64,000 bases of DNA, taken from positions 35,902 to 99,901 of the forward strand of contig NW_007360620.1 in NCBI RefSeq assembly GCF_000192795.1, written 5' to 3'. The stretch's first letter is position 1. Each line of letters begins with the position of its first letter. A model generated the notes under the pieces. That model saw nothing but the letters and a program-made list of their open reading frames with translations, searched no databases and had not been told where the DNA came from. Of the stretch, positions 24,232 to 58,532 are shown one piece after another. The position numbers and the translations under genes were made by a program. This DNA is from Vavraia culicis subsp. floridensis. Lineage: Eukaryota > Microsporidia > Pleistophoridae.

Positions 24232-24282
24232 ATGTCACATATCAAACTCGATGTATTTAAAAACGCAAAAAGCTATAATTCC

Positions 24283-30980: not shown

Positions 30981-32384
30981 ATGTGCATGTTTTTCCTGGT
31001 ATTTTCATTCCTACAGACGGTTTTGTTACAGAACGTTCACAACCCAGGCAGCGGTTTCACACATGGGTATGTCCCGGACGGGCTATACGATGTGAACGGA
31101 AATATGGGCGGTGCCTACTACAACCACAAGGGTTTGGGCACACATGCCGGCGACATTGGTATGAACGGCATTCTCTTCACGGCAGACGCATTGCATCACG
31201 GCGGAGAAGGCGAAATTTTTGTGTCCGGGTCTGCTGCTGACCAGGAAAATCTTATCGGAATGGGCTTGGACCAGCTGCACCAGAAAATGGCAAGTGATGT
31301 GGCGGCAATGCACGATGCAAACATAAAGTCAAAGGAGAAACAGATGGAAATCGCGATGCTTGAGTCACAGATCGCGCAGGAAATGGCGGAAGCAAAGCAA
31401 GAAGAAATATCACGCCTCAAATACTTGGACGATGTCGCTGAAATCAACGAGCACAAGGCGCCCGAGGTGCTTGGGAAGCAGGTAATTCCCGTGGCAACGT
31501 TCACAGAGGAGACAATGCCTCTTCGACATCATGTGCGGTACTTGATCGGCATGATCGGATCCATGCAGGCAACAGAAAACGCTAACATAGAGGCGCAGCG
31601 CAAAATTGCAAGACTAGACGACATTTCAGGGCAGTTCAAATCATACAACTCTGTTCTGAGCGATCCCCAACGGTATAAAGCCTTCCAGAAGGCGGCTGGA
31701 CTCGACGGATACTTTCCGATCGATTTTCCCGTTACAACCATTAATGGCGATTTTTATGTTTCTCATAGCGGACACGAAATCTTTGACCACGACCAGGATA
31801 TGAATTCGCCACCTGCGCCTGACGGTCACACGCACTTTTCCAATCATGGACTTGAAGCCAATCCGGTTCCCGTAGCTCCGGCTTCTGTCTCTCAGATACC
31901 ACCGTCGGCCACGCCAAAGTCACTGCCGGTTCAACGTTCTTCACCACAAGTACCGCCAGCTCATCCTGCAGCACCGTTTTCCCCTCCACCCGCTCCACCA
32001 ATATCGACGCCCCATCCACTGGCGCCTCCTCACCCACTAGCGCCTCCTCATCCACTAGCGCCTCCTCATCCACTAGCGCCTCCTCATCCACTAGCGCCTC
32101 CTCACCCACTGGCGCCCCCTCATCCACTGGCGCCCCCTCACCCACTGGCGCCTCATCTACCACCAATACTACCGATTCTTCCCAACCAGGCGGTACACCC
32201 CAATTCTCTCCCCCACCCCAGCCCATCTCCCTTCAGCACTCCGTTGCCCACGGCATTGCCACCATCATCTCCGCTTGATCTAATCAATAAGCAACAGGAA
32301 GAAGGCAAGAGACTTGCAGCAATGAAAGCCAATTTTGTAAGAAATCTTTCCAGGTCCGTGTTGCCAAATGGCATTTTTGTATGA
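30981..32384 (+). CDS. Secreted proline-rich repeat protein
   Basis: 467 aa. Signal peptide at residues 1-17 (FFLVFSFLQTVLLQ). Residues 20-90 are Gly/His/Asn-rich (GYVPDGLYDVNGNMGG). A long helical, Glu/Met/Ala-rich coiled-coil segment covers about 90-160. A mixed region is followed by a Pro-rich domain from about 300. Within it a six-residue unit PHPLAP is repeated about nine times (32005-32160, 18-bp DNA unit). The C-terminal 40 residues are charged (KQQEEGKRLAAMKANF). Proline-rich, secreted, repeat-bearing proteins are typical of microsporidian polar tube and spore wall. That role is inference, and I see no match to a named PTP or SWP. AATAAA lies 15 bp after the stop. Confidence 0.8.
   Translation: MCMFFLVFSFLQTVLLQNVHNPGSGFTHGYVPDGLYDVNGNMGGAYYNHKGLGTHAGDIGMNGILFTADALHHGGEGEIFVSGSAADQENLIGMGLDQLHQKMASDVAAMHDANIKSKEKQMEIAMLESQIAQEMAEAKQEEISRLKYLDDVAEINEHKAPEVLGKQVIPVATFTEETMPLRHHVRYLIGMIGSMQATENANIEAQRKIARLDDISGQFKSYNSVLSDPQRYKAFQKAAGLDGYFPIDFPVTTINGDFYVSHSGHEIFDHDQDMNSPPAPDGHTHFSNHGLEANPVPVAPASVSQIPPSATPKSLPVQRSSPQVPPAHPAAPFSPPPAPPISTPHPLAPPHPLAPPHPLAPPHPLAPPHPLAPPHPLAPPHPLAPPHPLAPHLPPILPILPNQAVHPNSLPHPSPSPFSTPLPTALPPSSPLDLINKQQEEGKRLAAMKANFVRNLSRSVLPNGIFV
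32005..32160 (+). repeat. 18-bp tandem repeat encoding PHPLAP
   Basis: About nine copies with scattered silent changes (CTAGCG/CTGGCG/CTGGCC), which suggests the peptide repeat is maintained. Confidence 0.85.
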
Positions 32385-36707: not shown

Positions 36708-36715
36708 TATAAAAG
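36708..36715 (+). promoter_or_regulatory. TATAAAAG box before Erv-like gene
   Basis: Ends 10 bp before ATG 36726 and decides the start against earlier in-frame Met codons. Confidence 0.55.
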
Positions 36716-36725
36716 GAAATTAAAA

Positions 36726-38552
36726 ATGTTTATTATGAAAAGTTCGGGTATCTTGAGGATGGTGTCAAGAGCAATTCTTTTGGTCTCGTTGGTGTGCTTT
36801 TACAGGCAGCAGAAGGACGATGTGCTGATGCCGATTGCGCTAGAGGGGAGACGAGGAAGTGCTCTGAACGAGGATAGTACGCCGGGAACAGTAAATGGCG
36901 TTGGCAAGCTGCAGAGAGGAATAATCGGCAGTTTGAGGGGATGTGCGAATGATGATAGGATAAAAGCAGCGCTGCGCGGCATTAGGTGGTTTGATGAGCT
37001 GGCAAAGAGTGGCATAACCAAATGCATGGAGGATAGGAGGATCAAAGCATTCATACACGTATTTGGATGGTTAGACAAGTTGATGAGCAAAGGAATGGAC
37101 AGGTGCACGAATAATAGTGGCGTACAGGCGGTCAAGCGCGGCATTAAGCGTTCGTTGACTTGGGCGGTGAAGGGCATGGCTAAGTGTTTGGAGAGTAACA
37201 AAGTGCAAGCGGCCTGGCACGGTGTTACAAGGTCGAAGGAATGGATAACCAACAAAACTGCTGGTTTTGTTACAATTGACGTGCCATCGATGGTTACGTG
37301 TAGTTTTAACAAGTCGCGGCATAGGATTGTGGCATGGACCACGAGGTACGGTAACGCGGCGAAGATGAAAAATATCGTTGTTTTCTCCCTAGCATGGAGC
37401 AAAACGGCATGCAAAAATGTGTACAAGTGGTTTAACATGGGCAATTTCTGGAACATCATTCTCAGAATCAAAGATTGGCAAACAAAACTGACAAGCCGCC
37501 TCATTTACCGTGCAAAAAAAGTTGAAATGAGCGCTGTACAACAGAACGCTAAGAATTGGCTGGCGAATACGGCATACGTGGTGTGTGGGTATGTGAACTG
37601 GGGAATTCTTCGAGGACCGATCGAGAGCATAAGGCGCGCACATGTAGTGGTTGCCGATAAAATTGCTGTTGGCGTAGAGAGGAGTGGGATAAAAGAAATA
37701 GCGGTTAAGATAGTGAAACTTGGGGAGGGAAGAGCTTGCACCGGGATGGTTGAAATGCTACGAGCGCTGGAGAAGAGGGCATCCGTAGATTGGATACGGC
37801 ACAGAATTCTGGGAATGCGCATCTCTTACGTCAAAAAGGAAATTAAATTTAAACAAACACGAGGAATGAGAACAGCGATTGATGAAGAACTAAAGCAAGA
37901 GATGGACGGTTTCTTGAAGGGCAATTGGAACGCGAGCGTGCATACCGACGAAAATGGTGTTGCTATGAGGGATGGCGGGGAAGTGCTCGATCGTGGGATC
38001 AACGATTGGATAAAGAAGCACGTGCATACACCTATTTCAATAAGACATAGGGTCTACGGGGCATTTGGCTTGATGGGAAAGAGAGCATCCATATGGTGGC
38101 GTTGGGTTGGGCAAAGATTGGCAAAGAACCTGGGCAGAATTATGAGACATGCACGAAATAGCCAAAAAAAGGTACCACAAGGAAGGAAAACGGATGGAAA
38201 CGGCTGTGCAATAAGCAAAAGTGCGCAAAACAGAGAAATAAGGGAAGAACTTGGAAGGGGCACATGGCGACTACTTCATACGATGGCCTCGAAGTTTCCG
38301 GTTGATCCCAGCGAACAGGACAAAAAGAACGTTATTCAGTTTCTTTCGTTGCTGGCCAAGCTATTCCCGTGTGAGGAGTGCAGCATGCACTTTCAAAAAC
38401 TACTGAATGACCATGTGCCTGTGGTTAGCTCGAGAAAGGAATTCGAGCTTTGGTTGTGCAGCGCACACAACGTCGTTAACAAACGTTTGGGAAAGCCTAT
38501 TTTTGATTGTGAAGGGATAAGCGATGTTTGGGGCTGTGGGTGTGAAATATAG
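36726..38552 (+). CDS. Erv2-like FAD sulfhydryl oxidase with 27-residue repeat N-terminus
   Basis: Catalyses disulfide formation with FAD and oxygen. The C-terminal 100 residues are an Erv/ALR domain: GRGTWRLLHTMASKFP, active-site C549-E-E-C552, FAD-site WLCSAHNVVNKRLGKP (His581), and FDC. A final C604-G-C606 corresponds to the mobile shuttle pair of yeast Erv2, so an ER-lumen enzyme is likely. A hydrophobic segment near residues 14-25 (AILLVSLVCFY) serves as signal or anchor. Unlike the roughly 190-aa family members this protein is 608 aa. Residues 73-180 hold four 27-residue repeats, each starting with Cys and containing IKA/VQA..G..W. The rest, to about 505, is basic, helical and Trp-rich without recognised domain. 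The start 36726 follows a TATAAAAG box. Confidence 0.88.
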   Translation: MFIMKSSGILRMVSRAILLVSLVCFYRQQKDDVLMPIALEGRRGSALNEDSTPGTVNGVGKLQRGIIGSLRGCANDDRIKAALRGIRWFDELAKSGITKCMEDRRIKAFIHVFGWLDKLMSKGMDRCTNNSGVQAVKRGIKRSLTWAVKGMAKCLESNKVQAAWHGVTRSKEWITNKTAGFVTIDVPSMVTCSFNKSRHRIVAWTTRYGNAAKMKNIVVFSLAWSKTACKNVYKWFNMGNFWNIILRIKDWQTKLTSRLIYRAKKVEMSAVQQNAKNWLANTAYVVCGYVNWGILRGPIESIRRAHVVVADKIAVGVERSGIKEIAVKIVKLGEGRACTGMVEMLRALEKRASVDWIRHRILGMRISYVKKEIKFKQTRGMRTAIDEELKQEMDGFLKGNWNASVHTDENGVAMRDGGEVLDRGINDWIKKHVHTPISIRHRVYGAFGLMGKRASIWWRWVGQRLAKNLGRIMRHARNSQKKVPQGRKTDGNGCAISKSAQNREIREELGRGTWRLLHTMASKFPVDPSEQDKKNVIQFLSLLAKLFPCEECSMHFQKLLNDHVPVVSSRKEFELWLCSAHNVVNKRLGKPIFDCEGISDVWGCGCEI

Positions 38553-55927: not shown

Positions 55928-57373
55928 ATGGTAAAACTATCAAAACCAATTACCCACTTTCCCAACCTCGCCCATCCCCTCTCTCTGCTACCTCCCAACT
56001 ACAACTTCGAACTCAAAAAAGTGCTATCAACCATAGCACGCCACAACGTGCAAAAGGTGGGCCTGCAATTGCCGGATGGTCTGTTAAAGTACAGCACCAT
56101 TCTGTCGGATGCAATTGAGGGTAACACCACAGCACGTGTGGTAACACTTGCTGATGTTGTTTATGGAGCGTGCTGCGTTGATACGGATGCGGATGTTGAG
56201 CTGATTGTGCATTATGGACATTCCTGTATTGTGGGATGTGGGGTGAAGGTGCTTTATGTTTTTGTGGACGTGTTTTTTGAGAGCGAACATTTGGAAGGAA
56301 TGGTGGGACGGATGATTGAGGAGATGGGTGAAGAGGGCGGTAATGAGAAGGGTGAAGAGAAGGGTGAGGTGAAGGGTGAGGTGAAGGGTGAAGAGAAGGG
56401 TGAAGAGAAGGGTGAGGTGAAGGGTGAGGTGAAGGGTGAGGAGAAGGGTGAAGAGAAGGGTGAGGTGAAGGGTGAGGTGAAGGGTGAGGTGAAGGGTGAG
56501 GTGAAGGGTGAGGTGAAGGGTGAGGAGAAGGGTGAAGAGAAGGGTGAGGAGAGGGGTGAAGAGAGGGGTGAAGAGAGGGGTGAAGAGAGGGGTGAAGAGA
56601 GGGGTGAAGAGAGGGGTGAAGAGAGGGGTGAAGAGAATGGCAAGAAAATGATGAGCGAGGTGAATGGCAGATATGGGAACAAAGAGAAGGGTGGTAATAG
56701 CAATTCAACCACCTCTACCATCTTAAGCACTCCAACCACGTGTAACAAATCAATCACAGTGCTAGGAACAGTGCAATACCGCCACATCGTATACAAACTC
56801 AACAAAATGTTCAACCTGCCCACCTACCAGGTAAAGCCCCTAAGCACCGGGGAAGTGCTCGGCTGCACAAGTCCAAAGGTGCACACCCCCAACGTGGTGT
56901 TCATAAGCGATGGCCGTTTTCACCTCGAATCGCTGATGATCGCAAATCCAACCGTGCGATTCTTCCGGTACTGCCCGTTCAACAAGCGCATGTACCGCGA
57001 GCACTACGATCATGCACGTATGCACCGCGTACGTGCACAGCAGCGCTGTGCATTCATGCGCTCAAGAACAGTGGGCATAATTAACGGCACACTCGGTGCG
57101 CAGGGCAACAGCCGTATCGTGGACAACGTGCACGACGCGCTTGTACGTATGGGAAAGGAGGTGTACGTGTTTAATATGGAGGAGGTGAAGGAGAGCAATT
57201 TAAGGTTTCCGTTCGTTGAAGGGTACGTGCAGGTGTGCTGTCCACGGCTTAGCATCGATTGGGGGCATCTTTACGGCACGTTCATGCTGTGTGCGTATGA
57301 AGTGTTTAACGAGAGGATAAAGGAGATGGACTTCTACAGCAAGGAGGAGATAAGGCCGTGGAACAATCACTGA
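55928..57373 (+). CDS. DPH1: Diphthamide synthase subunit DPH1
   Basis: First step of diphthamide formation on eEF2: transfer of the 3-amino-3-carboxypropyl group from SAM to His, using a 4Fe-4S cluster with DPH2. Conserved segments are [28 protein letters not shown] (Cys82/83), HYGHSC (Cys100), LYVFVDV, the central [17 protein letters not shown], and [13 protein letters not shown] (Cys437/438). YGACCVD and the ending fit DPH1 rather than DPH2. The family core is split by a low-complexity insert at about residues 130-250 made of GEVKGE, GEEKGE and GEERGE units, ending [17 protein letters not shown]. The equivalent cluster cysteines are present, so the enzyme may be active. ACCCC at 55922-55926 supports the start. 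Confidence 0.92.
56318..56692 (+). repeat. Variable minisatellite inside DPH1
   Basis: GGTGAGGTGAAG and GGTGAAGAGAGG 12-bp units, about 25 copies, all in frame. The last 60 bases match the 16870-17040 array. Confidence 0.9.
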
Positions 57374-57749: not shown

Positions 57750-58532
57750 CTATTCCTTCTTCTTAATTTCCTCCTTTTTGTTCTTATCACAGCAGCTCTT
57801 GCACTCTTCATCCTTGCATTCCTTGTTCTTACGCTCCTTCTCGTCCTTGCACACCTCGTCCTTGCACACTTTTCCCTTTGCATCGCATACTTTTCCCTTC
57901 TCATCCTTGCACACCTCGTCCTTGCATACTTTTCCCTTCTCATCGCATACTTTTCCCTTCTCGTCCTTGCACACTTTTCCCTTCTCGTCCTTGCACACTT
58001 CACCAGCACATACCTTTCCCTTCTCGTCCTTGCACACTTCACCAGCACATACCTTTCCTTTCTTCTCATCTTTAGTCACACTCTCTTCACCTTTCTTCAT
58101 ACCACTCACCTTACTACCCTTCTCTCCACTCCTCATCTCATCATCCTTCTTTCCCTGTCCACACGTGCCACAAATCGCTTCCTTATCCTTCTTATCCGCA
58201 CATAACTCAATAATGCGAACATTCTTCAACTGATTAGCAATATCACTTCCTCTCTTGAAAACAAGCGAGAACCCGCCATCCTTAGCCACGCACACCGGTT
58301 CCTTAATCTTGAACGGTAACGTACCCTCAATGCATCCCGAAACAGCACACGCATACCAACCGCCATCCTTTTCATTTTCATATCCTCTGGCGTATTTTAT
58401 GCGGTAAGAATTATCCGTGTATTGCAGCATTACGTCCTTCATGGTGACATGCTCAGGGAGTGTTATGTCGATGGTGAGTTTGTCTTTTTCAACTTTTTCT
58501 TTCTTGTGAGCGCTTGATGGTTTTATATGCAT
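57750..58532 (-). CDS. Small-heat-shock-like protein with Cys-rich repeat tail
   Basis: 260 aa from the first ATG at 58532 (ACCC immediately upstream on the minus strand). Residues 15-105 look like an alpha-crystallin/CS-type beta sandwich: DKLTIDITLPEHVTMKDVML, then DNSYRIKYARGY, GGWYACAVSG, GTLPFKIKEP and VAKDGGFSLVFKR. This is the order of sHsp strands, with the A.kdGvL-type ending. Residues 110-260 are a Lys/Glu/Asp-rich tail with about 20 Cys in repeats such as GKVCKDE and AGEVCKDE, recalling metallothioneins. Possible roles are a chaperone with a metal- or redox-sensing tail. This is inference, and either half could be misassigned. Confidence 0.65.
   Translation of the reverse strand: MHIKPSSAHKKEKVEKDKLTIDITLPEHVTMKDVMLQYTDNSYRIKYARGYENEKDGGWYACAVSGCIEGTLPFKIKEPVCVAKDGGFSLVFKRGSDIANQLKNVRIIELCADKKDKEAICGTCGQGKKDDEMRSGEKGSKVSGMKKGEESVTKDEKKGKVCAGEVCKDEKGKVCAGEVCKDEKGKVCKDEKGKVCDEKGKVCKDEVCKDEKGKVCDAKGKVCKDEVCKDEKERKNKECKDEECKSCCDKNKKEEIKKKE

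Follow-up and report, generated by a model that had tools for sequence, protein, structure and literature searches.

The window analyzed here, a stretch of 64,000 nucleotides from Vavraia culicis subsp. floridensis whose numbering is used below, carries a gene for an Erv2-like sulfhydryl oxidase (P0001) at positions 36726..38552 on the plus strand, with an open frame of 608 amino acids and orthologues in P0003 and P0004. This protein is a real, conserved and lineage-specific Erv variant with an unusual helical-repeat stalk. Approximately 450 stalk residues separate a hydrophobic N-terminal segment from the C-terminal Erv domain, and a 27-residue period runs through much of this region.

An Erv domain fused to a long novel region had been the core of the original prediction, and this part was borne out. 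The P0001 reading frame is open throughout 36726-38552 (+), the genome-level open frame comprising 685 codons. A protein search returned two full-length orthologues, namely P0003 (611 aa, 85% identity) and P0004 (628 aa, 47% identity, labelled partial), and both share the complete layout of anchor, stalk, Erv domain and CGC. When residues 496-608 were used as the query against proteins of 0.55-1.75 times the full length, P0001, P0003 and P0004 were recovered from 115 candidates. Since the two orthologues carry the same layout, the fusion is real and shared by all three proteins, and a gene-model error separating the oxidase from the upstream region is ruled out as its source. The invariant residues of the alignment of the three proteins first appear at Met4, and a TATAAA box (36708..36713, +) is located 27 bases 5' of the Met4 codon (36735), a spacing that fits the range of -26 to -29 at which TATAAA was found in 4 of the 20 other window genes examined. 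Therefore, the start of P0001 is more likely to be at 36735 (605 aa) than at 36726 (608 aa).

The TATA-type promoter had been taken to place the gene with the secreted ones. However, this promoter class does not tell secreted genes from others, because both kinds of exception are found in the window: no signal sequence is visible in two of the four other TATA genes (a cyclin-like gene and a 260-aa protein at 57750-58532, judged by eye), while four genes that look secreted by eye (starts at 24232, 13290, 32751 and 51693) have no TATAAA within 80 bases. Across the window, CCC occurs a few bases 5' of the start codon in housekeeping-looking genes (CysRS, Sar1, PTH2 and Dph; labels by eye) and also in a secreted-looking 316-aa gene, with TATAAA at -26 to -29 in a few others; the window genes show two promoter-like classes, CCC and TATAAA.

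The Erv1/Alr catalytic domain spans residues 511-602 (38256..38531, +) and was identified by its match to Pfam PF04777 (Evr1_Alr; E 6.6e-32, 92 of 93 model positions) and to the PDB entries 2hj3, 1oqc and 1jr8. No Pfam family besides Evr1_Alr matched P0001 up to E 1. All 17 aligned Ervs keep, without exception, both Cys residues of the CEEC motif (residues 549-552, 38370..38381, +), the FAD-proximal redox pair, as well as the structural pair C578/C595 and the CGC motif (residues 604-606, 38535..38543, +), the C-terminal shuttle pair. P0001 has the Evr1_Alr domain and the FAD-proximal CxxC by which membership of the Erv1/Alr family is defined, and is predicted to bind FAD and to act as a thiol oxidase. 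Yeast Erv2 has a C-terminal CGC, and the C-terminal CxC shuttle characteristic of Erv2-type enzymes is likewise present in P0001 as CGC. A QSOX-type N-terminal thioredoxin domain is absent (Pfam to E 1 for the protein and to E 5 for residues 1-495). P0001 is the sole Erv match detected in the 5.63 Mb assembly, and no paralogue of the protein or of its stalk was found elsewhere in the genome at E 1, the single match being P0001 itself.

At the N-terminus, residues 7-25 (36744..36800, +) form a hydrophobic segment with a mean Kyte-Doolittle value of 1.79, the next best segment of the protein reaching 1.08. By the same measure of hydropathy, the segment scores 1.79 in P0003 and 1.44 in P0004, and residues 1-45 of P0001 are 56% identical to P0004. 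It is a probable signal anchor, and residues 7-25 probably act as a membrane anchor.

The stalk that follows matches no known domain: no Pfam family matched residues 1-495 of P0001 up to E 5, known helical repeat families included, and the 21 PDB matches obtained at E 0.1 lie on the Erv domain, with a marginal match to 3axy (E 0.073) that starts earlier, at residue 475. Four exact 27-residue units had been described at residues 73-180 (36942..37265, +). The first four units are indeed each headed by a Cys residue, at 73, 100, 127 and 154 and thus in exact spacing, and the period is real. Self-similarity at offset 27 was reached by none of 5000 shuffles, offset 27 gave the best mean self-score among offsets 5-79, and none of 1000 shuffles reached the offset-27 score at any offset of 15-59. 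However, the units are exact in length alone, with 4 to 10 of 27 residues identical between pairs, and the pattern is probably not confined to four units but runs on in phase to about residue 342, with weaker support beyond unit 4.

This longer region, residues 73-342 (36942..37751, +), appears to hold about ten in-phase 27-residue helical units, of which units 5-10 are likely but uncertain. Here, 27 is the top hydrophobicity period among 12-60 (F 4.62, 0 of 300 shuffles), compared with a highest F of 2.68 in 13 control window proteins (362 windows). In residues 181-342 alone, 27 is again the top period, with F values of 2.60 in P0001, 2.60 in P0003 and 3.55 in P0004; these were reached at any period by 8, 3 and 0 of 300 shuffles, respectively, and at period 27 by 0 of 300 in each protein, while an F of 2.60 was attained in 5 of 18 control proteins when maximized over windows and periods. 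A profile HMM built from units 1-4 yielded no further units, giving sub-zero scores alone outside the four, so that the wider array rests on the periodicity of its hydrophobic columns. Against units 1-4, phase 12 scored better than phase 0 both for residues 181-342 (-12.8 vs -13.0) and for residues 181-369 (-13.8 vs -16.0), and the phase-0 value past unit 4 was reached by 0 of 500 shuffles in phase 0 and by 11 of 500 in some phase. Four 27-residue units are certain, and an array of about ten, covering residues 73-342, is likely. The remaining residues 343-495 (37752..38210, +) form a further basic stretch that is partly helical in the model and does not show the period (F27 0.84, reached in 210 of 300 shuffles).

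The period is also found in the orthologues. Offset 27 ranks top in P0001, P0003 and P0004 when the N-terminal part is taken as a whole. In the stretch of P0004 that matches units 1-4, offset 27 was reached by 1 of 5000 shuffles, although the best mean score belonged to offset 54, with 27 second. Over the ten unit rows, hydrophobic residues fall in columns 1, 2, 7, 10, 11, 14, 17, 20-21 and 25-26, and this spacing of 3-4 is the pattern of an amphipathic helix.

Structure prediction of the repeat region suggested one helix per unit, at low confidence in both models. The AlphaFold2 model, built with 16 sequences, had a mean pLDDT of 49.5 and a whole-model pTM of 0.29, and block means in the stalk ranged from 29 to 69, mostly below 50. 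At this low pLDDT, helices were placed at residues 77-99, 104-126, 131-152, 160-178, 186-207, 211-236, 240-263, 268-291 and 300-319, that is, one in each of the first nine units, the helices being interrupted at or close to the unit boundaries. A single-sequence model of residues 46-378 (mean pLDDT 35.6) agreed on the helices of units 1-3 and 7-8, while units 4-6 were modelled as coil and short strands. In the AlphaFold2 model, each unit looks like a single helix of about 22 residues.

The repeat cysteines had been regarded as the functional point of this domain, and here the original prediction was not supported. The ten units carry C, C, C, C, F, Y, W, R, Y, G in column 1, so that Cys heads only 4 of 10 units, namely units 1-4, and the corresponding heads in P0004 are V, Y, C and C. 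Among the nine stalk Cys residues of P0001 (residues 46-495), all nine are kept in P0003 and five in P0004, those common to the three orthologues being C127, C154, C192, C338 and C494; at Cys494 (38205..38207, +), the aligned residue of P0005, a shorter relative described below, is likewise Cys. The 18 stalk Trp residues are kept in 16 cases in P0003 and in 10 in P0004, which places the conservation of Cys (5/9) in P0004 no higher than that of Trp (10/18), though above the stalk average of 32-40%. The original prediction had named, as a result that would speak against it, a known fold explaining the repeats without Cys conservation in orthologues; the part on missing Cys conservation is largely borne out by P0004, while the Pfam search offered no known fold.

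These data bear directly on the proposal that the stalk cysteines serve as an internal substrate or relay of the oxidase, or form a disulfide-bonded scaffold for the spore wall or polar tube. The exact 27-residue spacing of four Cys residues in both P0001 and P0003 speaks for it, as does the retention of five of nine in P0004 against a stalk identity of 32-40%. However, Trp is retained to the same extent, V and Y replace two of the four unit-head cysteines in P0004, and column 1 lacks Cys in all six of the later units. Furthermore, if the units were arranged as up-down helices, neighboring heads would lie at opposite helix ends, and the Leishmania Erv carries an accessory domain, KISS, that has no Cys according to PMC8557897. 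Because column 1 varies both along the array and in P0004, neither a conserved Cys relay nor self-cross-linking finds support, and we consider this proposal very improbable. The Cys column looks like a mainly hydrophobic position at the helix junction that accepts mostly bulky hydrophobic residues, and the five kept stalk cysteines may leave room for a structural disulfide. The composition of the stalk suggests another arrangement, in which basic, Trp-rich amphipathic helices, strung one after another, would lie flat on the lumenal membrane rather than form a solenoid or bundle. The stalk of P0001 has a net charge of +47 over 450 residues (+47, +41 and +30 in the three long forms) and contains 18 Trp, and several units combine a high hydrophobic moment with a charge of +2 to +5. 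Yet only 3 of 16 unit segments have a moment above the 95th percentile of shuffles, and packed helical bundles likewise contain amphipathic helices, which leaves this arrangement improbable.

As to the compartment, published and database labels disagree. According to PMC5216125, Erv1 was found in neither T. hominis nor E. cuniculi, and the gene is assigned to the ER enzyme Erv2, whereas the N. ceranae genome paper lists its homologue as Erv1, and the NCBI name of P0004 is mitochondrial. P0001 could accordingly be thought of as a mitosomal Erv1 acting in Fe/S export or in an intermembrane-space relay, with the basic region as a targeting or membrane-binding device. Besides these names, the hydrophobic segment after a basic N-terminus would suit such a role, and the top PDB scores are those of plant Erv1 (107 bits) and ALR (100.8), ahead of yeast Erv1 (98.8) and yeast Erv2 (95.5). 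The CGC tail, however, is that of yeast Erv2, and the genome offers little of the expected partners: no CHCH domain (Mia40-type, PF06747) was found at E 0.1 in a six-frame search of the draft assembly with this short model, and no small-Tim match passed the cut-off, one sub-threshold match reaching 18.4 bits. Three Ero1-like open frames were detected, all with CxxCxxC kept (L002:967-1779, +, 270 aa; L003:1399-2166, -, 255 aa; L004:751-1827, +, 358 aa), together with four thioredoxin-like (thioredoxin/PDI-like) matches. The presence of Ero1-like and thioredoxin-like proteins, where CHCH and small-Tim were not found, is consistent with an ER oxidase acting alongside Ero1. A mitosomal role is unlikely, and P0001 is probably an ER-type, Erv2-like oxidase. 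The three Ero1-like frames would give this small genome several oxidases of the ER.

We therefore favor, as reasonably probable, the reading that P0001 is an ER membrane-anchored type II Erv2 with a lineage-specific helical stalk that serves as a spacer or scaffold, the unit-head cysteines being dispensable for redox transfer. Residues 7-25 would hold the type II oxidase in the membrane of the ER or secretory pathway. A reduced substrate, most likely PDI, would pass electrons to the C-terminal CGC shuttle, from where they would reach the CEEC pair beside FAD and finally oxygen, a path taken from the known mechanism of the family. The putatively helix-rich, basic and Trp-rich stalk would set the distance between enzyme and membrane, and it may in addition, or instead, dock the oxidase to a partner or to the membrane surface. 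The Cys residues of units 1-4 would belong to a hydrophobic column where the helices join, without being needed for redox transfer. A more specific role, which we regard as improbable, is that of a membrane-tethered platform on which the stalk would capture Cys-rich precursors of the spore wall or polar tube beside the CGC in the ER lumen. If this were true, the protein would give the infection apparatus a disulfide-assembly machine of its own.

Comparison of the long forms with other Ervs suggests how the stalk arose. The Erv domain of P0001 is 98% identical to that of P0003 and 81% to that of P0004, while stalk identities amount to 79-83% and 32-40%, respectively, a difference that a loosely constrained spacer would be expected to show. 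With residues 430-608 as the query, 14 relatives were obtained at E 1e-12 among 74 candidates. The named microsporidian short Ervs among them, from Nematocida and Binucleata, are 160-179 aa long; in these, a hydrophobic N-terminus (measured in P0009 and P0012) is joined through a short linker to the Erv domain with its CGC. An N-terminal hydrophobic segment was recognized by eye in 9 of the 14 relatives and was missing in P0006, P0013, P0015, P0017 and P0018, some of which are perhaps fragments. The closest Erv relative outside the long clade is P0005 (258 aa, 62% identity over the aligned part), and a repeat in its stalk of about 118 residues is not significant, as 467 of 500 shuffles reach the best self-score. 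The 27-residue pattern is thus found in relatives as a period in P0003 and P0004, but not with constant Cys heads in P0004, and no significant repeat is seen in P0005.

As the short microsporidian Ervs have only a short linker where the array is located, the stalk is most likely an expansion of the linker that joins the anchor to the Erv domain, and this growth would account for a long-clade Erv more than three times as long as the named microsporidian ones. Ancient duplication of a 27-residue one-helix unit is the best explanation for a large part of the stalk. Tandem Repeats Finder detected no DNA array inside the P0001 gene, which indicates that the unit duplications are old.

Repeats are also seen elsewhere in the window. 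Over positions 1-64000, 39 tandem repeat array rows were recorded, some of them overlapping, and many lie inside open frames and have periods divisible by three. The open frame at 55928-57373 (+), which we take to encode a Dph1/Dph2-like protein, contains about 27 copies of a 12-base repeat encoding KGE/EKGE-type sequence. The 260-aa protein at 57750-58532 (-), for which Pfam gave no match at E 0.01, ends in a Lys/Cys-rich tandem repeat. A 467-aa protein at 30981-32384 (+) has an N-terminal hydrophobic segment (by eye), an 18-base Pro-rich repeat and TATAAA at -26; it has no Pfam match at E 0.01 and looks secreted.

The architecture of P0001 is not described in the titles and abstract parts of the open-licence literature on microsporidian or repeat-containing Ervs that we consulted, including PMC5216125, PMC2685015 and PMC5731054, and the terms 'sulfhydryl' and 'Erv' are absent from the main text of the T. 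hominis papers PMC4654818 and PMC10618108. Yeast Erv2 (1jr8) and the short microsporidian Ervs share with P0001 the Erv fold, the CxxC and the structural Cys pair, and the microsporidian ones also share the CGC and the N-terminal membrane segment. However, their linker comprises a few tens of residues, compared with about 450 in P0001, and has no helical array. P0005 resembles P0001 in its DVWGCGCEI end, its N-terminal hydrophobic segment and its basic stalk, but this stalk is much shorter and shows no significant repeat.

More distant Ervs have acquired extra domains of their own. Mimivirus R596 combines the Erv domain with a helical ORFan domain (residues 180-292, six helices, novel fold), and the cleft of its dimer is basic and aromatic and was proposed to bind targets or to localize the enzyme (PMC3509050). 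R596 and P0001 have both gained a helical extra domain, that of R596 being C-terminal and accompanied by a CX9C shuttle (PMC3509050). In the mitochondrial Erv of Leishmania tarentolae, the Cys-free KISS domain (residues 122-275) is dispensable under standard growth but influences redox state and heat tolerance (PMC8557897). Like the P0001 stalk, KISS is a lineage-specific addition to a parasite Erv, but it is inserted between the flavodomain and the shuttle arm (PMC8557897). Neither the ORFan domain nor KISS consists of arrayed repeats placed in the N-terminal linker. QSOX is a multi-domain protein with a C-terminal Erv domain like P0001, but its defining N-terminal thioredoxin-fold domain (PMC3616962) was not found in P0001. 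The analysis corrects the reading of the stalk as a Cys relay and probably also the 'mitochondrial' database name. Added to the ORFan domain of mimivirus, the KISS domain of kinetoplastids and QSOX, the P0001 stalk indicates that Ervs gain accessory domains repeatedly.
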